This document shows, one piece after another, positions 1,911-11,792 of a stretch of 12,282 nucleotides of DNA (within the stretch, counting starts at the first letter, position 1; the number at the start of each line of letters is the position of its first letter). Position numbers and translations under genes: made by a program. Source of the DNA: Chloroflexota bacterium (GTDB lineage: Bacteria > Chloroflexota > Anaerolineae > UBA4142); the NCBI GenBank assembly GCA_023380675.1, contig JAMCRS010000239.1, positions 1-12,282 of the forward strand, in the 5' to 3' direction. The notes under the pieces are model-generated. The model was not told where the DNA came from and made no database searches. It worked only from the letters and a program-made list of their open reading frames with translations.

Positions 1911-4595
1911 TTACGACTGCTTGCGCTCCACCTTTACGGCGCACACTTTGAGCTCCGGAATCTTGGCGACCGGATCGACGGCTGGGTTGGTGAGGAAATT
2001 GCTCAAAGCCTCGGCGTAGTGAAAGGTCATGAAGACAACGCCATGTCCGACGCGGTCGGTCACCCACGCGCGCGACTCGATCGAGCCGCGGCGAGACGTT
2101 ACCCGCACCCAATCGCCGTCGGCAACCCCGAGGCACGCCGCATCGTCCGGGTTCACTTCGACGCGTTCTTCGGGCGCGAGCTCGTTCAGGCCGGCGACCC
2201 GCCGCGTCATCGCACCGGTATGGTAGTGCTGGAGGATGCGGCCGGTGGTGAGCGCGAACGGGAACGTCGTATCGGGCGACTCCGCCGGTTCCTGGTGCTC
2301 GACCGGGGAAAAGAGGCCCTTGCCGCGTGAGAATTTCTGCGTGTGCAGGATCGGGGTCCCCGGATGGTCCAGCGCGGGTACCGGCCACTGCAGGCCGGTC
2401 GTCTCGATCCTCGGATACGTGATGCCGGCGTACGACGGCGTGAGCGCGGCGATCTCCCGCATGATCTGCTCGGGGGAGTCATAGTCCCATCCGCCGGTCT
2501 GCCCCATTCGCTTGGCGAGCTCGCCGACGATCTCCCAGTCCGCGCGGACCTGTCCGATCGGCTCGATCGCCTTGCGGACCCGCTGGACCCGGCGCTCGGT
2601 GCTGGTAAACGTTCCGTCCTTTTCGGCGAACGACGCCACGGGCAGGACGACGTCCGCCAATTGCGCCGTTTCCGTCAGGAACAGCTCCGAGACGACAAGA
2701 AAGTCAAGATGCTGCAGTGCTTCGCGCACGTGCTGCGCGTCCGGGTCGCTCATGGCAACGTTTTCGCCGATGATCCACATTGATTTCAATGTGCCGCTAT
2801 GTGCCGCAGTGAGCATCTCGCCGACGGTTAAACCCGGCTTCGATGGAAGAGTCGCTCCCCAAGCCTTGCCGAACTTGTCGCGCGCGGGCTCGTCGATCAC
2901 ACGCTGATATCCCGTGTAGACGTTGGGCAGCCCGCCCATGTCGCACGCGCCTTGAACGTTATTCTGCCCGCGCAGCGGATCGACCCCTGCGCCGGGCTTG
3001 CCGATGTTGCCGGTGACCATGGCGAGGTTGGCGACCGCGAGGACGTTGTTGTGCCCCACGGTGTGCTGCGTGATCCCCATGGCGTACAAGATCGCACCCG
3101 GCTTGTTGCCGCCGTACAGGCGGGCCGCCGCGAAGAGATCGTCGACCGGCACCCCGGTGATCTCGCTGACCCGAGCCGGCGTGTACGTCTCGACCACCTT
3201 GCGCCACGCATCGTACCCCTCCATGCGCTCGGCAATGAATTCTTTGTCTTCGAGCCCTTCTTTCAGGATGATGTGCGCCAGACCGTTCAGCAGCGCAATG
3301 TCCGTCCCGAGCCGCTGCCGGATGTGCAGCGTCGCGATATTCGCCAGGTCGATCGAGCGGGGGTCGGCGACGATCAGCTTGGCGCCGCGGCGCACCGCCC
3401 GGCGTATGCGCGTCCCGATCACGGGATGCTGCTCGGTGGTATTCGACCCGATGACGAGCATCGACTGACACTCGTCGAGATCGGCTATGCTGTTGGTCAT
3501 CGCGCCCGAACCGAATGCTGTGGCCAGACCGGTCACGGTGGCAGCGTGTCAGAGGCGGGCGCAGTGATCGACGTTGTTCGTCCCCATCACTGCACGGGCG
3601 AATTTCTGAATGAGATAATTCTCTTCGTTCGTCGCCTTGGCCGAGGCCAGGACGGCGAACGAGTCCCCTTTGCTCTCTGCAAATTTCTGCGCGACCAAGC
3701 TCAGCGCTTCATCCCAGCTCACCTCGACCAGTTGGCCGTCCTTCCGCACGAGCGGCTGGGTCAGCCGGTCCTTGTGGTGAATGAACTCAAAGCCGTAGCG
3801 CCCCTTGACGCAGAGCGCCATACCGTTGACCGGGGCTTTGGGATTGGACGTGACTTGAACGATCTTTCCGTTGAGCACGTTCAAATCGAACTGGCAGCCG
3901 ACGCCGCAGTAAACGCACGTCGTCGTGACCTTTTTCATGTCGTAGGCCCGGCCGATGCCGCGGGACGGCTTGTCGGTCAAAGCCCCCGTCGGGCAGTACG
4001 CCGCGCACGCGCCGCACGATTCACAACCGGCCTCGAGCATCGTCACGTCCGCGCCGGCGACGATGCGATCGTTAAAGCCGCGATAGGCGACGCCCCAGAC
4101 GTTTCGTCCCTGTATCTCGGCGCACGCGCGAACGCAGCGCGTGCAGAGAATGCACTTGTTGAAATCGGTGAAAACGAACGGATTCGCGTCCGACCCGACG
4201 ACGTAGTTGTGCCGCTTGCCCTTGTGCTGCGGCCATTGGACCTGGTATCTGTAGACGTGGTCCTGGAGCTCGCAATTGCCGTTGGCCTGGCACGTCATGC
4301 AGTCGTTAGGATGGTCGGTCAGGAGCATTTCCAGAACGAATTTGCGCTCGTCGACGACCTTGGGCGTCTCGGTATGGACGACCATGCCCTCGCTGACGGG
4401 AAGCGTGCACGAGGCCACGAGCCCGCGCATCTTTTCGACCTCGACCACGCACAGGCGGCAGGCTCCGACCGGCTTGAGATCGGGGTGATGGCACAGCGTT
4501 GGAATGCTGACGCCGTTCGCCCGCGCCGCGTCGAGAACGGACTGACCCTCGCGCGCTTGAATCGGTTTGTCATCAATCGTCAGGTTTATGGGCAT
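1911..4595 (-). CDS. fdhA: Selenocysteine-containing NAD(P)-linked formate dehydrogenase, catalytic alpha subunit (UGA read as Sec349)
   Basis: This subunit catalyses interconversion of formate and CO2 at a molybdenum or tungsten bis-pterin site. The 894-residue product requires read-through of an in-frame TGA at 3551-3549, giving CARL-U-HAATV. The same place carries Sec in E. coli FdhF (CARV-U-HG) and Cys or Sec in homologues. Domains: NuoG-like [2Fe-2S] (C35, C46, C49, C63); His-Cys3 [4Fe-4S] (H95, C99, C102, C108); two ferredoxin-type clusters (C148/151/154/158 and C191/194/197/201); the molybdopterin-oxidoreductase cluster (C227, C230, C234, C262) followed by K264; the catalytic domain with Sec349 and His350; and a C-terminal molydopterin dinucleotide-binding domain. 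The N-terminal chain is that of soluble FdsA/HydA-coupled enzymes. ATG 4595 is preceded by AGGAG at good spacing; a TTG at 4619 is less likely. No Tat signal is visible, so the enzyme should be cytoplasmic. NuoF lies upstream, so it is probably the direct partner. Confidence 0.95.
3517..3551 (-). promoter_or_regulatory. Bacterial SECIS element (selenocysteine insertion hairpin) in fdhA
   Basis: Counting the U of UGA as 1, the mRNA carries GGUCU at 22-26, the same offset as the GGUCU loop of E. coli fdhF, and U17 is also present. Hand folding gives GUG/CAC (16-18 with 30-32), an A-C mismatch, and CC/GG (20-21 with 27-28) closing the GGUCU loop. A lower GCU/AGC pairing (7-9 with 33-35) is possible. 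An alternative register bulges U17, as in E. coli. Known bacterial SECIS elements sit directly after the UGA and bind SelB through this loop. The match in place and loop sequence is seen directly; the fold was not computed and the stem is less perfect than that of E. coli. Confidence 0.75.
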
Positions 4596-4614: not shown

Positions 4615-4646
4615 GTCAATTAGTCAACTAGTCAATCAGTCAATCG
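4615..4646. repeat. Octamer array, GTCAAYYR type (4 units)
   Basis: Four consecutive 8-bp units run GTCAATTA, GTCAACTA, GTCAATCA, GTCAATCG. They end 20 bases before the fdhA start codon, just outside its ribosome site. On the minus strand each unit reads as TTGAC pointing towards fdhA. The units resemble those of the other arrays in the window. Function is unknown. Confidence 0.85.
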
Positions 4647-4657
4647 GAACGCTTAAG

Positions 4658-4705
4658 GTTGGAACGTTGGAGCGTTTAAACGTTCGAACGTTCCAACGTT
4701 TGAAC
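4658..4705. repeat. Octamer array of palindromic GTTNNAAC units (6 units)
   Basis: Six contiguous 8-bp units run GTTGGAAC, GTTGGAGC, GTTTAAAC, GTTCGAAC, GTTCCAAC, GTTTGAAC. All but the second fit GTTNNAAC, so the outer six bases are self-complementary while the middle two vary. The array overlaps the 3' end of the upstream NuoF gene and supplies its last codons and stop. It is a different unit from the neighbouring GTCAAYYR array but has the same period. Confidence 0.88.
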
Positions 4706-6364
4706 ACCCCTGCGTTTGCTGGTCGGAACAGCCGGCTCGCTGCGCATTGGGCAGACGCTGCTTGGGCATTTGCGGTCGTGTGTGTGTGCGACGAATTCGT
4801 CACGGAAAAAGCGCAGGCCGGTCAGGATGGGCACCGCTGCCGCCTGACCCAGACCGCAGAATGAAGCAAGCTGCATCTCGGTCGCGATGCGCTCCAACCA
4901 AGCAATGTCGTCCATCGTCGCGCGCCCGTCGGCCACCAGGTCCAAGGTCTCTTTCGCCCGCGTGGTCCCGATCCGACACGGGACGCACTTGCCGCAGCTC
5001 TCGGCTGCAAAAAAGCGGAGCAAGACGCGCGTTAGATCGACCACGCACGTTCCTTCGCCGCAGATCAATAGTGCGCCCGATCCAAGCGCGCCGCCGCGTG
5101 CGGCCAGCTCGGCATAGTCCATCGGTACGTCGAGAAACGACGAATCCAAGAGCGAGCCGGATGCTCCGCCGGTCTGCGCCAGCTTGAAACCGCGGCCGTC
5201 CCGCATCCCGCCGCCGTACACCTCGACGACAGTGCGCAGGGTTGTGCCCATTGGCACCTCGATCAAGCCGGTGACGTTCACATCGCCGAGCATCGTGTAA
5301 ACTTTGGTCCCCGGGCATTTGGCGGTCCCGAGCGTCCGATACCACGGCGCGCCTTTGAGAATGATCGGCGGCAGGTTGGCTAAGCTTTCCACGTTGTTCA
5401 CCGCGGTCGGATTGCCCCAGATGCCCCAAGTGACCGGATAGGGTGGACGGATACGCGGCTCGCCGCGTTTCCCCTCCAGCGATTCGATCAATGCCGTCTC
5501 CTCGCCGCACACGTACGCACCGGCGCCCGAATGGATATGCACCTCGAACGAGAAATCCGACCCGAAAATCCCCTTGCCGAGCAGGCCGAGCGTGTGCGCC
5601 TGCGCGATCGCGCCTTCGAGGCGTTCCCGCGCAAGACGGTATTCACCTCGAACGTAAACGTACCCTTCGCGCGCGCCGATCGCATATCCGGCAAGCAGCA
5701 TTCCTTCGAGGATGGAATGCGGATCGCCCTCGAGCATGAGCCGGTCTTTGAACGTTCCGGGCTCGGATTCATCGGCGTTGCACAGGACGAACTTGCGCTC
5801 GCCGCGAGCTTCGGACACGAACTTGAGCTTGCTTCCGACCGGGAAACCGGCTCCGCCGCGCCCCTGCAAGCCGGCGTCGGAAATCTCTTGAATGACCTGT
5901 GCGGGCGTCATCAGCGTGAGCGCCTTGCCGAGCGCGGCGTAGCCGTCGTGCGCGATATACTCTTCGATGGACTCTGGATTGATGATGCCGGGGCGCGCGA
6001 GGACCACTCGCTGCTGCGCAAATACGGCACCCTGACGTGCTGGCACGCGCACGATCGCGCCGCTGAGAGGCTTGGCCGTCACCCGCAAGCCGTCGACGAT
6101 GCGCCCTTTGTAAAGATGTTCGGACACGATCAGGAGCGCGTCGTTCGGTCCGACCGGTCCGTAGACCGTGCCTTCGGGGTACACCGTCACGGCCGGCAGC
6201 TGCAACGCCGCAACGCGCAAATCGCCGGTCAAGGCGACGCCTACTTCGTCGCTCAATCCGTAGAACGCGATCTCGGCTTCCAGGGCGGACTTGACCGCTT
6301 CCGCGCCGCGCGAGAGGCTGACGGGGTCACCGGAAATGAGGACGTGCGAGCGTTTCACAGGCAT
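4676..6364 (-). CDS. nuoF: NuoF-like NAD(P)/FMN-binding diaphorase subunit with a cysteine-free N-terminal domain
   Basis: This 562-residue flavoprotein subunit passes electrons between NAD(P)(H), FMN and a [4Fe-4S] cluster. It shows the FMN/NADH-site motifs GRGGAGFPVGSK (168-179), CNADESEPGTFKDR (195-208) and GAGAYVCGEETAL (280-292). Cluster ligands are C457, C460, C463 and C503. The N-terminal 90 residues align with the thioredoxin-like [2Fe-2S] domain of the other NuoF here (both keep VYPEG and SEHL-KGR), but every cluster cysteine is missing, so no cluster is expected there. It lacks the two C-terminal ferredoxin motifs of its paralogue. About ten final residues (GVQTLERSNV) are encoded by the GTTNNAAC array. 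ATG 6364 has GGAG seven bases upstream. It lies between the membrane-protein gene and fdhA, which makes it the likely FdsB-type partner of FdhA. Confidence 0.93.
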   Translation of the reverse strand: MPVKRSHVLISGDPVSLSRGAEAVKSALEAEIAFYGLSDEVGVALTGDLRVAALQLPAVTVYPEGTVYGPVGPNDALLIVSEHLYKGRIVDGLRVTAKPLSGAIVRVPARQGAVFAQQRVVLARPGIINPESIEEYIAHDGYAALGKALTLMTPAQVIQEISDAGLQGRGGAGFPVGSKLKFVSEARGERKFVLCNADESEPGTFKDRLMLEGDPHSILEGMLLAGYAIGAREGYVYVRGEYRLARERLEGAIAQAHTLGLLGKGIFGSDFSFEVHIHSGAGAYVCGEETALIESLEGKRGEPRIRPPYPVTWGIWGNPTAVNNVESLANLPPIILKGAPWYRTLGTAKCPGTKVYTMLGDVNVTGLIEVPMGTTLRTVVEVYGGGMRDGRGFKLAQTGGASGSLLDSSFLDVPMDYAELAARGGALGSGALLICGEGTCVVDLTRVLLRFFAAESCGKCVPCRIGTTRAKETLDLVADGRATMDDIAWLERIATEMQLASFCGLGQAAAVPILTGLRFFRDEFVAHTHDRKCPSSVCPMRSEPAVPTSKRRGVQTLERSNV

Positions 6365-7091: not shown

Positions 7092-7193
7092 ATTGGGTAA
7101 CCGACCGAACCTCGGGCCTCTTTCTTCTATAGAGACCGGAACCAGGATGGCAGACGTTGCGTGTGACAAGCCTTCCCGGTAAGTTCCGAGTTC

Positions 7194-7222
7194 TTGACAA
7201 GCTCTCGCGATACTGCTATGCT
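7194..7222 (+). promoter_or_regulatory. Sigma70-type promoter for the DUF4258/YgiT-like pair
   Basis: A perfect -35 box TTGACA (7194-7199) is followed, after exactly 17 bases, by TATGCT (7217-7222). Transcription would begin near 7229, about 12 bases before the ATG at 7241, leaving a very short leader. This is the clearest promoter in the window. It shows that the plus-strand pair carries its own expression signal, independent of the surrounding minus-strand operon. Confidence 0.72.
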
Positions 7223-7240
7223 TTGACTCGGCACCGTCCA

Positions 7241-7579
7241 ATGAGCCATAAGCGGGCACTACGATTCAGCGAGTTGATCGAACAGATTCGCGAAAAGATC
7301 GCGCAGGATCAATTTGAATATACTCGCCACGCGGTCGACCAGAGCATTCTACGACACATTACGGTCGAAGAACTGCGCCAAGCCATCTCAGGCGGCGAGA
7401 TCGTCGAGGACTACCCTGACGACAAGTACGGACCCCGTTGCCTCGTTTTTGGGATCACTTCGTCCGGGAAGCCTCTTCACATTCAGTGCAGTTATCCCTC
7501 TCGACGTCTAGTCAAGATCGTAACAGCCTACGTTCCCGATCCGAACCAGTGGACAGAATTCCGATTCGGGAGGACATGA
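7241..7579 (+). CDS. DUF4258 domain protein, likely toxin-like partner of a YgiT-type gene
   Basis: This is a 112-residue small basic protein. It carries the DUF4258 pattern: FEYTRHAVDQSILRHIT (26-42), a GEIVEDYPDDKYGPR stretch (52-66), hydrophobic strands with KPLH (77-80), VKIVTAYVPD (91-100) and a terminal W-x(3)-F-x(3)-R. Such proteins resemble RelE/BrnT-like folds and are often encoded just before YgiT-type zinc-finger genes, as here, so a toxin-antitoxin-type pair is the working idea; activity is not established for the family. ATG 7241 was chosen over one at 7157 because the promoter lies between them and the homology starts after it. It is on the opposite strand to all neighbours, convergent with nuoE and divergent from the membrane-protein gene, which suggests an inserted module. 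Confidence 0.82.
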   Translation: MSHKRALRFSELIEQIREKIAQDQFEYTRHAVDQSILRHITVEELRQAISGGEIVEDYPDDKYGPRCLVFGITSSGKPLHIQCSYPSRRLVKIVTAYVPDPNQWTEFRFGRT

Positions 7580-7580
7580 T

Positions 7581-7805
7581 ATGTCAATGCAATCGTCGGA
7601 AGAATCACTCGTCGAACGAAAGGTTACGTATACTCTAGAACAGAACGGCAAGCTCATTGTCATCGAAAACGTGCCCGCAAGGATCAACCTCGAAACCGGC
7701 GATCAATTGTTTGCGCCCGAAACCGTCGAACGTTTGCAGAATATGATTTGGGAGGAGAAAAAACCAACCCGCGTTATGCAAGTTCCGGTGTTCGAGTTCT
7801 CGTGA
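7581..7805 (+). CDS. YgiT/MqsA-N-like small protein lacking the zinc-binding cysteines
   Basis: This 74-residue protein starts one base after the DUF4258 stop, with GGAGG seven bases upstream, so the two are translationally coupled. The core ERKVTYTLEQNGKLIVIENVPARI with GDQLFAPETVERLQ is the YgiT-type pattern. The zinc ligands, normally a CxxC at the N-terminus and a CxxC after VPAR, are absent: the second site reads I-N-L-E-T-G, with Asn36 and Thr39 where Cys is expected, and no Cys occurs anywhere in the protein. No HTH domain follows, unlike full MqsA. It may act as an antitoxin-like partner that folds without zinc. The family assignment rests on pattern recognition, not a search. Confidence 0.78.
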   Translation: MSMQSSEESLVERKVTYTLEQNGKLIVIENVPARINLETGDQLFAPETVERLQNMIWEEKKPTRVMQVPVFEFS

Positions 7806-7945: not shown

Positions 7946-8356
7946 CTATTGCGTACGCGCCAGTATCTCCGCTGCCCGTTCCGGCGTCAGGTTGCCGTAC
8001 ACGTCGTCGTCCACCATCATGACCGGCGCCACGCCGCAGAGTCCCAGGCAGCTCGTCATCTCAAACGTCCACTGGCCGTCCTCCGAAGTGCCGCCGGGCT
8101 CTACGCCCAGGGTCGACCGGATGGCATCGTAGACCTCGCGGCCGCCGGCGATGTGGCAAGGCGCGTCCTCGCAAAATCGCACCACGTGCGCGCCGTGAGC
8201 TCGAATGCTCAACATCGAGTAAAACGTCGCCGCGCCGAACACACGAGCCGGCGGCATTCGCAGCTCTCGAGCCAGCTCTTCAACCTGCGCCCGCGGGATA
8301 AACCCTAGCCGACTCTGGATCTCGGTCAGACGCTCGACGATGTCTTCGCTACTCAC
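7946..8356 (-). CDS. nuoE: NuoE-like [2Fe-2S] subunit (24 kDa type; HydC/HndA/FdsG family)
   Basis: This 136-residue subunit has a helical N-terminus (about 1-50, including GAATFYSML, a NuoE hallmark) and a thioredoxin-like [2Fe-2S] domain. The ligands are C62 and C67 (FCEDAPC) and C103 and C107 (SCLGLCG), followed by APVMMVDDDVYGNLTPE. It hands electrons between the flavin of a NuoF partner and other clusters. It begins at GTG 8356, supported by GAGGTGG four bases upstream. It is somewhat short for the family but complete. It lies downstream of the HydB-type NuoF, separated by 532 bases of repeat-rich DNA. It is the only NuoE in the window and could serve either NuoF. Confidence 0.93.
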   Translation of the reverse strand: MSSEDIVERLTEIQSRLGFIPRAQVEELARELRMPPARVFGAATFYSMLSIRAHGAHVVRFCEDAPCHIAGGREVYDAIRSTLGVEPGGTSEDGQWTFEMTSCLGLCGVAPVMMVDDDVYGNLTPERAAEILARTQ

Positions 8357-8396: not shown

Positions 8397-8476
8397 GGCA
8401 ACCGGGCAATCAGGCAACCGGGCAATTCGGCAACTAGGCAACCGGGCAATTCGGCAACCGGGCAACCAGTCAACCG
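8397..8476. repeat. Octamer array, GGCAAYYR type (10 units)
   Basis: Ten uninterrupted 8-bp units form this array: GGCAACCG occurs four times, with GGCAATCA, GGCAATTC (twice), GGCAACTA, GGCAACCA and a last GTCAACCG. It lies about 40 bases upstream of the nuoE start. The last unit is of the GTCAAYYR kind, which links it to the other arrays. No coding frame or CRISPR-like spacer is present. Confidence 0.9.
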
Positions 8477-8803
8477 GGCGTTTCGTTACGTGCACAGAGC
8501 ATTACCGGCCACCAGGCAACGAGTTGACCTCGTCGTGCCCAATTGGAGAGTGTGGAGCAAGTCGGAAGCACGTGTCACTACGAGGGCGCGGAGCGCCCGA
8601 AGAGGTTCTCGCGCGTTGATTCCGGCGCTTGCGTTGACACGAGTCGCGCGTTTTTGTTTCTCCGCGCGAAATCGCGCGCCTCGCTTGCGAGGCGACGTCG
8701 GCGGACACCGCCTCCTCACGACCCTGGCATGACTGTGGCGCACTTCACCACAGCCACGGACCCGCCAGCAGGTGTGACACGATGTTTCTCAACACTCTCG
8801 CTT
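8477..8803. other. Gene-free spacer between two opposed octamer arrays, with several hairpins
   Basis: No convincing gene is seen on either strand. The segment holds several perfect hairpins: GGGCGC/GCGCCC at 8584-8598, CGCGCG/CGCGCG at 8663-8678, CGCCTCG/CGAGGCG at 8677-8694 and CTGTGG/CCACAG at 8732-8752. None is followed by a T-run on the minus strand, so they are not textbook terminators for the upstream NuoF gene, although they could slow or protect the transcript. The segment is bracketed by arrays 8397-8476 and 8804-8882. Confidence 0.6.
8571..8641. repeat. Possible REP/MITE-like palindromic element
   Basis: A 71-base segment is bounded by a 7-base inverted repeat (CGTGTCA and TGACACG). 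It contains the GGGCGC-GGA-GCGCCC hairpin next to CACTACGAG and CGAAGAGG. The layout recalls dispersed bacterial repeats of the form TGTCA-TTGCGAG...GAAGCAATCTC. Only one copy is present here, so dispersal cannot be shown. Confidence 0.35.
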
Positions 8804-8882
8804 AGTCGACCAGTTGCCCAATTGACTAGTTGACCAATTGACCAGTCGACTAGTTGACTAATTGACCAATCCCCAATTGACC
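8804..8882. repeat. Octamer array, ARTTGACY type (10 units)
   Basis: Nine 8-bp units and one 7-base unit (AATCCCC at 8868) follow ARTTGACY, for example AATTGACC, AGTTGACT and AGTCGACC. The array ends six bases from the stop codon of the HydB-type NuoF. It is the reverse complement in kind of the GTCAAYYR arrays, so it faces the opposite way to the array at 8397. Confidence 0.9.
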
Positions 8883-8888
8883 GCCCTT

Positions 8889-10670
8889 TCACTCCACCAC
8901 GATCGCGTCGAATTTGCAGACCGACATGCAGATGCCGCAGCTTTCGCAAATGTTTGGATCGATCCGATGGACCTTTTGCCGTTCGCCGGTGATCGCCTTG
9001 GACGGGCAGTTGCGGGCGCACACCATGCAGCCGGGACAGGTGTCCAGTATGCGGTACGTGATCAGCTCCTTGCACACTTTGGCCGGGCAGCGTTTCTCTT
9101 TGATGTGGGCTTCGTACTCGGAGCGAAAGTGCTTGAGCGTCGTCAACACCGGATTCGGCGCGCCCTGCCCGAGGCCGCAGAGACTGCCGGCGACGATATA
9201 GCGCGATAGGTTTTCCAGGCGCTCGATATCCTCTTCCTCACCCTCGCCGGCGCAGATCCGTTCCAGGATCTCGAGAATCCGCCGTGTGCCGATCCGGCAG
9301 GGGACGCATTTTCCGCAGCTCTCGTCTTGCGTAAACTCCATAAAAAAACGTGCGATGTCGACCATGCACGTGCCTTCGTCCATCACGACGAGACCGCCCG
9401 ATCCCATGATCGAGCCCACCTTGCCGAGCGACTCGTAATCCATCGGCGTATCGAGGAGGCTTTCGGGAATGCATCCGCCCATGGGGCCGCCCGTCTGAAT
9501 CGCTTTGAACGCCTTGCCGTCCTTGATGCCGCCGGCGACGTCGAACACGACCTCGCGCAGCGTAATGCCGAGCGGGACTTCGATGAGTCCAGAGCGCACG
9601 ACGTCGCCGGCGAGCGTAAAGGTCTTGGTCCCCTTGTTCTTTTCGTTACCGATCGAGGCGAACCAATCGGCGCCCCGGCGAATGATCTGTCCCACATTCG
9701 CCAACGTCTCGACGTTGTTGATGATAGTCGGCTTGCCCCACAGGCCGGCGACGGCCGGAAATGGAGGTCGCGGACGCGGTTCGCCGCGCCGGCCCTCGAT
9801 CGATGCCATCAGCGCGGTCTCTTCGCCGCACACGAATGCGCCGGCCCCCATGCGCAGCTCGACGTCGAATCCGAATCCGCTCCCCATGATATCCGGGCCG
9901 AGGAAGCCGAACTCGCGCGCCTGACGCATCGCGATCTTGAGCGTTCGGACGGCGATGGGGTACTCGGCGCGGCAGTAGATGTAACCCTGGTGCGCGCCAA
10001 ACGCATAACCGGCGATGATCATTCCCTCGAGCACCGAGTGCGGATCGCCTTCCAACACGCGGCGATTCATGAACGCACCCGGGTCGCCCTCGTCGGCGTT
10101 GCAGATGATGAATTTCTGGTCCGATTTCTGGGCGGCCGCGAATTCCCATTTCTTGCCGGTCGGAAACCCGGCGCCGCCGCGGCCGCGCAGGCCGGATTTC
10201 AAGACCTCGTCGATCACCTGGCGAGGCGTCATTTCGAGCAGCGCCTTGCCGAGCGCACCGTAGCCGTCCTCGGCGATGTAATCCTCGATGTTCTCCGGGT
10301 CGATCACGCCGCAGCGCGCCATGATGACGCGCATCTCCTTGGCGGTCGGCGCGCGCAGCTCTTCGTCCTTACGGATCTGGCCCTTGTATTCGTATTTTTT
10401 CGCCACGCGGCCCTTGAGCAAGTGCTCGCTGACGATCTCCGCGACCGCATCGGGCGTCAGGTTGACGTAGGTGACCCCTTCGGGATAGACGACCATCTCC
10501 GGGCCGGTCTGGCAGTGCCCGAGCCGCGAAGTTTCGAGGACGTTCACCTCGTCGCGAAGCCGGTTCGAATCCAGCTCGCGCAAAAGCGCCTGCTCGATAT
10601 CATTGGCACCTTTCGCCACGCACTCGGGATCGGTGCAGAGCAAGACATGGGATCGGAAAAACTCTGACAT
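8889..10670 (-). CDS. nuoF: HydB/HndC-type NuoF subunit: NAD(P)/FMN-binding, with N-terminal Trx-like domain and two C-terminal [4Fe-4S] motifs
   Basis: This 593-residue diaphorase subunit belongs to the soluble, often electron-bifurcating, hydrogenase/formate dehydrogenase family. Order: thioredoxin-like [2Fe-2S] domain (about 1-90); FMN/NADH domain with GRGGAGFPTGKK (163-174), CNADEGDPGAFMNR (190-203) and GAGAFVCGEETAL (275-287); the N3-type cluster C452, C455, C458, C498; then two ferredoxin motifs C545/C548/C551/C555 and C575/C578/C581/C585. The N-terminal site retains C12, C17 and C53, but the position where the fourth cysteine is expected (four before C53) is Arg49. ATG 10670 has GAGGT five bases upstream. 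It is separated from its usual HndB-like neighbour by the four-helix bundle insertion. In homologues it pairs with NuoE and accepts electrons from NADH and ferredoxin. Confidence 0.94.
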   Translation of the reverse strand: MSEFFRSHVLLCTDPECVAKGANDIEQALLRELDSNRLRDEVNVLETSRLGHCQTGPEMVVYPEGVTYVNLTPDAVAEIVSEHLLKGRVAKKYEYKGQIRKDEELRAPTAKEMRVIMARCGVIDPENIEDYIAEDGYGALGKALLEMTPRQVIDEVLKSGLRGRGGAGFPTGKKWEFAAAQKSDQKFIICNADEGDPGAFMNRRVLEGDPHSVLEGMIIAGYAFGAHQGYIYCRAEYPIAVRTLKIAMRQAREFGFLGPDIMGSGFGFDVELRMGAGAFVCGEETALMASIEGRRGEPRPRPPFPAVAGLWGKPTIINNVETLANVGQIIRRGADWFASIGNEKNKGTKTFTLAGDVVRSGLIEVPLGITLREVVFDVAGGIKDGKAFKAIQTGGPMGGCIPESLLDTPMDYESLGKVGSIMGSGGLVVMDEGTCMVDIARFFMEFTQDESCGKCVPCRIGTRRILEILERICAGEGEEEDIERLENLSRYIVAGSLCGLGQGAPNPVLTTLKHFRSEYEAHIKEKRCPAKVCKELITYRILDTCPGCMVCARNCPSKAITGERQKVHRIDPNICESCGICMSVCKFDAIVVE

Positions 10671-10686
10671 TTATACCTCGGAAAAA

Positions 10687-10774
10687 GTCAACTGGTCGAT
10701 CAGGCAATCAGGCGATCAGGCGATCAGGCGATCAGGCGATCAGGCGATCAGGCAACTGGTCAATTAGGAATTAG
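10687..10774. repeat. Octamer array with five identical GGCGATCA units (11 units in total)
   Basis: The units run GTCAACTG, GTCGATCA, GGCAATCA, then GGCGATCA five times in a row (10711-10750), then GGCAACTG, GTCAATTA, GGAATTAG. The array sits 16 bases upstream of the NuoF start codon, just outside its ribosome site. The identical core inside diverged flanks is what recent unit duplication by slippage would leave. Confidence 0.92.
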
Positions 10775-10850: not shown

Positions 10851-11309
10851 TCACTCGCGTTCGTCAACATTCTGGGCTTGACTCTGCCCCGGGTCATCGG
10901 CGCACTCTCGGACCGCCAGCCGGGCGCCAGGTTCATTCTCACCTTGTTTGGATTTCTTGAGGTAGATGATGTATCCATTTAGCATCCGTGCCACCTGATC
11001 AGCTAGTTGCCGGACCTCGGCGTAGTGGTCGACGGAGACGTATTCGAGGTCGCGCGCATCAATCATGTGGCCGATTGTTTCGAACAAAGACCCACGAGCC
11101 TGGTAACAAAAGTGCACCGAGTCCATGTAGTAGTACCGTCCGTAGCCCTCGGCGATGTTGGCCGTGACGCTCTTGGACGAGTTTCGAAGCTGCGAAGCCA
11201 GTCCGTACTTTTCCACGGTGGGAAGTCGAGGGAGAATTTGGCGGTGGATCACCAGGACGAGTTCGTGAGCCTTGCGCCAGACTTCGAGCCCCTCGAATCC
11301 CTCAGCCAT
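10851..11309 (-). CDS. Four-helix bundle protein (S23/TIGR02436 type)
   Basis: This 152-residue protein is mostly helical. Family hallmarks are GLEVWRKAHELV (7-18), YGLASQLRNSSKSVTANIAEGYGR (positions 35-58) and ARGSLFETIGHMIDARDLEYV (positions 71-91). The fold is that of the ORF often found inside 23S rRNA intervening sequences, and stand-alone copies are common; the molecular function is unknown. The core ends near residue 120, and a polar tail of about 30 residues follows. ATG 11309 has GAGGAG at good spacing. The gene interrupts the usual HndB-NuoF gene pair and is bracketed by octamer arrays at 10687-10774 and 11405-11491. It has no obvious tie to formate metabolism, so it looks like an inserted cassette. 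Confidence 0.9.
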   Translation of the reverse strand: MAEGFEGLEVWRKAHELVLVIHRQILPRLPTVEKYGLASQLRNSSKSVTANIAEGYGRYYYMDSVHFCYQARGSLFETIGHMIDARDLEYVSVDHYAEVRQLADQVARMLNGYIIYLKKSKQGENEPGARLAVRECADDPGQSQAQNVDERE

Positions 11310-11404: not shown

Positions 11405-11491
11405 ATTTGACCAATTGACTACTTGACCGGGTGACCCGTCGGCTGATTGACTAATCGACCAATCGCCCAATCCCCGATTGCCCAATCGACT
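11405..11491. repeat. Octamer array, ARTTGACY type, degenerate (11 units)
   Basis: Units include ATTTGACC, AATTGACT, ACTTGACC, GGGTGACC, GATTGACT, AATCGACC, AATCGCCC and AATCGACT, with one 7-base unit at 11477. It stops one base before the stop codon of the HndB-like gene, the same placement as the 8804 array beside the NuoF stop. It is the most diverged array in the window. Confidence 0.8.
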
Positions 11492-11792
11492 CTACCGCGC
11501 CACCACCCACTCTTCGATTACCTTGCCGCCGGTCACGTGTTCGGTAACGATCGCGCGGGCGCGTTCCGGCGTCACCTTGCCGTACGTCACTTTGGGCGCG
11601 TCGCCAACTTGGACGTCGACGATGGGCTCGAACTCGCACAGGCCGATGCATCGCATCGCGGGCGCCGGCGGCGATCCCGCACGTGCCCATGCCGACCGTG
11701 ATATGCGCTCGCGCGGTCGCATCGCGAATTCGACGCTTTTCCAGCGCTTGCTCTTTGATCTTTTTCAGTTCTTCAAGCGATTTCACTGCCAT
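11492..11792 (-). pseudogene. HndB-like thioredoxin-type [2Fe-2S] protein, broken by internal deletion and frameshift
   Basis: The first frame starts at ATG 11792 (GAGGT five bases upstream) and reads MAVKSLEELKKIKEQ through GMGTCGIAAGARDAM, the family N-terminus with the first cluster cysteine. Near 11645-11660 the homology jumps to another frame: RCIGLCEFEPIVDV, then KVTYGKVTPERAR and GGKVIEEWVVAR, ending at TAG 11492. Intact relatives have roughly 22 more residues between these parts, so about 65-70 bases seem to be lost, with a net frame change. The junction lies in the short direct repeat GATGCGATGC, which suggests slippage or recombination; an assembly error is the alternative. In homologous clusters this small protein sits beside HydB-type NuoF as an electron-carrying component. 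If the break is real, that component is missing or supplied elsewhere. Confidence 0.78.

Follow-up and report, generated by a model that had tools for sequence, protein, structure and literature searches.

The window, which is the whole 12,282-nucleotide stretch of Chloroflexota DNA analysed here, contains the formate dehydrogenase gene fdhA and genes for NuoE-like and NuoF-like subunits (Table 1). The fdhA frame lies on the minus strand, starts at ATG 4595, and ends with a TAA that finishes at 1911. It holds exactly two stops, the terminal TAA and a TGA at codon 349, with HCARL before the TGA and H after it. An earlier note on this DNA proposed that two open frames join in phase across this single TGA into a full-length formate dehydrogenase, and the read-through product bears this out. 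It scores 860 bits against the TIGR01591 Fdh-alpha model (cut-off 666.25), covering model positions 1-672 of 672. Its Pfam domains are Molybdopterin, Molydop_binding, Molybdop_Fe4S4, Fer2_4, and NADH-G_4Fe-4S_3.

Table 1. Features of the fdhA locus in window coordinates; nucleotides of the hairpin element are counted from the U of the UGA.
Feature	Positions	Strand	Basis
fdhA, 894-residue formate dehydrogenase alpha chain including Sec349, NuoG-like in its N-terminal part	1911..4595	-	TIGR01591, Pfam, AAGGAG
In-frame TGA, predicted to be read as selenocysteine 349	3549..3551	-	Alignment with relatives and with E. coli FdhF residue 140
Putative SECIS-type hairpin, nucleotides 16-32, GUGACC-GGUCU-GGCCAC, A-C mismatch at 19:29	3520..3536	-	Family covariation; 5/6 pairs in the window
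GGUCU apical loop, nucleotides 22-26	3526..3530	-	Conservation in TGA loci; same offset as in E. coli fdhF
Second NuoF-like subunit, lacking a C-terminal ferredoxin domain	4676..6364	-	Pfam Complex1_51K, NADH_4Fe-4S
NuoE-like thioredoxin-type [2Fe-2S] subunit	7946..8356	-	Pfam 2Fe-2S_thioredx, 143 bits
NuoF-like subunit ending in a 4Fe-4S ferredoxin domain, resembling HylB in its domain content	8889..10670	-	Pfam Complex1_51K, NADH_4Fe-4S, Fer4

The genes upstream of fdhA on the same strand encode, in order, a NuoF-like subunit, a YhhN protein, a NuoE-like subunit, a NuoF-like subunit with a ferredoxin domain, a four-helix-bundle protein, a broken HydD-like frame, and an ATPase domain. A histidine kinase and a response regulator are found downstream. 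The two NuoF paralogues are 49% identical and flank the one NuoE beside FdhA. Relatives were taken as the best 80 of 213 confirmed loci from a scan of genome contigs, and neighbouring genes were printed for 37 of these 80. Gene order in the window is mostly common to relatives L003 and L008, and the two regulators also occur in L003. The NuoF-NuoE-NuoF arrangement upstream of FdhA recurs in L002, L003, L008, and L032. Of the printed loci, 27 lie beyond the close clade. In 16 of them FdhA is directly preceded by one NuoE-NuoF pair and in L032 by the double arrangement; the others show neither arrangement or are truncated where the contig ends. The window proteins scanned did not include a separate HylA-like subunit, and the NuoG-like clusters lie inside FdhA.

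Several other elements were observed in and around the cluster. The small HydD-like protein at 11451-11792 is split at 11649/11650, where its two pieces, which are in different frames, adjoin, and the piece that was scanned has no Pfam match. In L003 and L008, 63 nucleotides lie between the pieces matching this frame, and the break is either a real deletion with a frameshift or an assembly fault. The four-helix-bundle gene at 10851-11309 is a 23S_rRNA_IVP member by Pfam. Tandem arrays that repeat every 8 bp, or in some cases every 16 or 24 bp, lie between genes or at gene ends, at 4615-4705, 8397-8479, 8803-8882, 10697-10753, and 11453-11488. On the plus strand, opposite to the cluster, a DUF4258 gene is followed by a small frame (7157-7805); a matching pair occurs in L001, and we would guess that the two are toxin-antitoxin-like. 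In L006, a second match to the last 40 FdhA residues follows the full gene (4959-5078) and is possibly an assembly duplicate.

The codon aligned with 349 is readable in all of the best 80 loci, and the peptide patterns used to find these loci leave that codon out. It is TGA in 53 loci, TGC in 20, and TGT in seven. Ten loci are 77-82% identical to the window (L001-L009 and the partial L018), and all ten carry TGA and belong to Chloroflexota, which makes this the most likely phylum for the window too. The earlier note placed the TGA at the catalytic residue (CARL-U-H) and suggested aligning the joined protein with Sec and Cys forms. The alignment agrees, pairing codon 349 with the TGA-encoded E. 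coli FdhF residue 140, and 27 of the 80 relatives have Cys there. Translation with table 11 cuts the enzyme at this catalytic residue, and standard gene calling would miss Sec349, as had also been pointed out. On a quick tree of 85 rows (the window, the 80 loci, and 4 proteins) with an arbitrary root, the Sec/Cys label needs 16 changes, at least 12 of which are forced by well-supported branches.

One of the proteins that group with the ten close loci, the metagenomic P0002, is 78% identical to FdhA and has Cys at the Sec site. This close Cys form, together with the broken look of the HydD-like frame in the same window, could point to a nonsense mutation or sequencing error at a Cys codon. A broken gene is nevertheless very unlikely, as TGA occupies the same codon in 53 of the best 80 relatives, including all ten of the closest, and GGTCT is held together with it. 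The frame beyond the TGA is also still under protein constraint. Differences to the ten close kin are third-position heavy on both sides of the TGA, and after it they amount to 0.07-0.12 at second positions versus 0.42-0.54 at third positions. Another possible reading is that of two genes, the first of which would stop at the TGA and encode an N-terminal chain, while the second would start from GTG 3536, 12 bases past the TGA codon. The 25 bases before this GTG contain no recognisable ribosome-binding site, whereas ATG 4595 has AAGGAG upstream, and the split would fall inside the Pfam molybdopterin domain (residues 277-696). Two separate genes are thus extremely improbable. Both readings were rejected on the relatives' TGA, the frame constraint, the ribosome-binding site, and the domain split.

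The frame stays open with any residue at the TGA, as it would if TGA were a sense codon (e.g., Trp or Gly) throughout the organism's code. Against this, six of the nine minus-strand window frames checked end in TGA, fdhA uses TGG 11 times and has no in-frame TGA besides codon 349, and the aligned codon is Cys in 27/27 non-TGA loci. Global reassignment of TGA has a negligible probability and was rejected, as far as the window goes, by the codon and stop counts.

Selenocysteine at codon 349 was also considered in light of the Sec genes of the relatives' genomes. Five of 14 control genomes also reach the gathering score of the tRNA-Sec model, so tRNA-Sec was counted only at 66 bits or more; many matches of ~35-58 bits are presumably other tRNAs. 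SelB and SelD were counted only over cut-off because both searches give below-cut-off signals in every genome. Among the 20 TGA genomes searched, tRNA-Sec (at least 66 bits) was found in 17, SelB in 17, SelA in 17, and SelD in 18. The corresponding numbers for the ten Cys genomes searched are 4, 5, 5, and 4. The genomes of the ten closest loci contain tRNA-Sec (at least 69 bits) in nine cases, SelB in eight, SelA in eight, and SelD in nine. All 22 SelD matches over cut-off carry one in-frame TGA, and SelD is therefore probably a selenoprotein itself in these genomes. The genome of L003, which has TGA in fdhA, gave no SelA, SelB, or SelD over cut-off and a best tRNA-Sec match of 43.6 bits; it may be an incomplete bin or a case of loss. 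Within the window, an Rfam scan at the gathering threshold gave no matches and ARAGORN found no tRNA genes. No SelA, SelB, or SelD was among the families shown for the window proteins scanned (eight in one scan and ten in another).

The GGUCU loop coincides with Gly-Leu codons 356-357. GGTCT is present there in 52/53 TGA loci versus 5/27 Cys loci (Fisher p 6e-14, with loci that share ancestry and are not independent). Gly-Leu pairs elsewhere in the same TGA genes are written GGTCT in 54 of 329 cases. The codon for Gly356 ends in T in the window and all ten of its close kin (11/11). Across the 46 further Gly codons that these sequences share, GGT averages 13%, and 15 of 164 comparable fourfold positions are invariant. 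Constraints of a bacterial SECIS consensus model are given in a figure legend of PMC13188914, in the part of that source drawn on here. The spacing from the UGA to GGUCU is 18 nucleotides (nucleotides 4-21), which lies within the model's limits of 16-37, and the five-nucleotide GGUCU loop, if the family hairpin forms, agrees with its loop constraint.

The earlier note placed GGUCU and U17 at the same offsets as in E. coli fdhF. The offsets hold (nucleotides 22 and 17), but the likeness to the E. coli U17 structure does not. Almost every sequence has A31 or G31 facing nucleotide 17, and 53/54 have a standard pair at 17:31, so the parallel with the E. coli bulge is good for offset and not for structure. 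U17 was also rejected as evidence for a SECIS, since this nucleotide falls at the second position of a codon that mostly encodes Val, and 26/27 Cys loci have U there too.

The only TGA locus without GGTCT is L054 (10397-10446), where the loop codons are GGCCTC. Its 50-nucleotide strand folds at -14.1 kcal/mol, with nucleotides 21-26 paired to 32-37 at probabilities of 0.91-1.00 around a CGUGC loop. This alternative hairpin is about 5 nucleotides farther from the UGA, and the SECIS of L054 may therefore have moved. All four Sec genes are present in its genome, G019.

A SECIS hairpin after the TGA was the other structural claim of the earlier note. It stands for the family stem and fails for the window's own fold. 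RNAalifold found the stem 16-21/27-32 unguided and returned no structure for the 27 Cys loci. Over 53 sequences, 95.6% of the cells in this stem are paired, 33 cells have changes on both sides, and compensatory changes occur at four of the six pairs. None of 500 shuffles matched the observed covariation score, the percentage paired, or the number of double changes; 3/500 matched the number of pair types, and 48/500 had as many pairs carrying double changes. As the tool used for this test warns, relatedness among sequences can by itself give values above those of shuffles, even where there is no structure. Slid controls, which keep relatedness, reached 19-54% paired versus 95.6% for the stem. 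Folded as 45-mers, 45/53 TGA relatives give the pair 20-28 a probability of at least 0.5 versus 5/27 Cys loci, and the numbers are 43/53 and 3/27 when folding starts from nucleotide 15. The Cys locus L043 (9162-9206) keeps GGTCT and a full six-pair hairpin of -6.8 kcal/mol, perhaps a remnant SECIS after a change from Sec to Cys.

The window strand prefers another fold. RNA folding had been proposed as a check, and the expected hairpin is not the minimum fold of the window strand; three stretches folded alone gave z-scores of -0.17, -0.07, and -0.69. The expected stem pairs have a probability of about 0.01 in the 45-nucleotide strand and 0.00 in shortened strands, and they stayed at 0.00 when the strand was trimmed at its 5' end, at seven start points between nucleotides 4 and 16, to imitate coverage by the ribosome. 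Folding of the lone strand thus failed as proof of the hairpin. The window strand avoids the family hairpin because of the A-C mismatch at 19:29 and competing pairings, namely ACCG with CGGU in the 40-nucleotide strand and ACCGG with UCGGU in the 45-nucleotide strand. In the window, the upper stem consists of five pairs split 3+2 by the mismatch, where the SECIS model asks for 4-16 bp. Hairpin 16-32 has an energy of -2.9 kcal/mol, which misses the model's limit of -7.5 kcal/mol or lower. The best 40-nucleotide fold with GGUCU open reaches -5.3, and the minimum, -10.0, is the other fold, which pairs part of the loop. Some putative SECIS elements fail the consensus constraints, according to a portion of PMC13188914.

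Selenocysteine could also be inserted through an RNA fold other than the family hairpin as drawn, with SelB reading either a different structure or a GGUCU hairpin that is short and dynamic. Position 19:29 is mismatched in 10/54 sequences (A-C in nine, U-C in one), nine of which are the window and its close kin L001 and L003-L009 and the tenth L029, and the lone strand of L001, like that of the window, folds otherwise. However, the mismatch sequences also keep the loop and the remaining five stem pairs, and the close kin L002 and L018 have U-G at 19:29 and a full stem. The 45 TGA relatives with a stem-pair probability of at least 0.5 also include most of the mismatch-bearing kin. Insertion by a different fold is improbable. 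A further proposal is that SelB of this Chloroflexota clade recognises a SECIS variant without a bulged U17. Its short symmetric stem would be opened at 19:29 in 9 of the 11 clade sequences (the window, L001-L009, and L018, the other two having U-G) and would be weak as the window's lone strand, so that SelB would rely chiefly on the GGUCU loop or would itself induce the fold. This proposal is speculative and rather unlikely.

From sequence comparison, UGA 349 of fdhA is predicted to be read as selenocysteine, with a probability of roughly 0.96. This reading is supported by the Sec/Cys alternation, the loop held with TGA, the stem covariation, and the presence of Sec genes in the majority of the relatives' genomes that were searched. 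In the proposed mechanism, fdhA would encode the catalytic subunit of a formate dehydrogenase that is linked to NAD and may be electron-bifurcating. SelB with Sec-tRNA(Sec) would bind the hairpin, whose GGUCU loop begins 18 nucleotides after the UGA, and would deliver selenocysteine at UGA 349 in this organism. Sec349 would replace the active-site Cys and would act as a metal ligand, as selenocysteine does in the formate dehydrogenase family. Electrons would then pass to NAD and ferredoxin via the adjoining NuoE and NuoF subunits.

The locus is a clean comparative case, in which TGA with a held GGUCU is set against Cys with a drifting codon pair, and Sec/Cys changes are repeated. The reading of one enzyme is corrected, and knowledge of selenoproteins is unchanged. 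Formate dehydrogenase is the most widely distributed bacterial selenoprotein family in a section of PMC13188914, and the most widespread, with SelD, in an excerpt of PMC1794560. Part of PMC4959059 describes Sec-annotated formate dehydrogenases, beside kin without Sec, in the Anaerolineales single-cell genomes An-B16, An-B22, and An-K11 (2016). The window shares with these, as far as they are described there, the phylum, a Sec-annotated formate dehydrogenase, and kin without Sec. FdhA of the window is thus an ordinary addition to a known Sec family, because such enzymes are widespread and already reported in Anaerolineales.

E. coli K-12 FdhF (fdhF, NC_000913.3) has its only internal in-frame TGA at the aligned residue 140 and is 42% identical to FdhA over residues 220-890. 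The two elements share the UGACACG start, GGUCU at nucleotide 22, U17, and 21 of the first 36 bases. Unlike the window, the E. coli element folds into a longer hairpin that leaves one of the two U residues at 17/18 unpaired; in the window the stem is symmetric, A31 faces nucleotide 17, and the chain has a NuoG-like N-terminal part. The E. coli apical pairs 19-28 and 20-27 have probabilities of 0.99-1.00 in the 45-nucleotide strand and from nucleotide 4, and of 0.59-0.95 when shortened to nucleotides 12-15. The best solved relatives by sequence are PDB 6tg9 and 9wxb, formate dehydrogenase alpha chains with a NuoG-like part that match residues 2 to 889/890 at over 820 bits. Both differ from the window in having Cys at the Sec site in the printed alignments.

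With its two flavin modules, this formate dehydrogenase locus could merit its own study. The electron-bifurcating HylCBA-FdhA of Clostridium acidurici and Desulfotomaculum consists of HylC, HylB with a ferredoxin domain, HylA, and FdhA, as set out in a portion of PMC5736913. Compared with that description, the window likewise has a NuoE-like subunit, a NuoF-like subunit with a ferredoxin domain, and a Sec FdhA in one locus. It differs in showing no separate HylA-like gene among the proteins scanned and in having a second NuoF. The gene content suggests an NAD-linked, perhaps electron-bifurcating, complex resembling HylCBA-FdhA.
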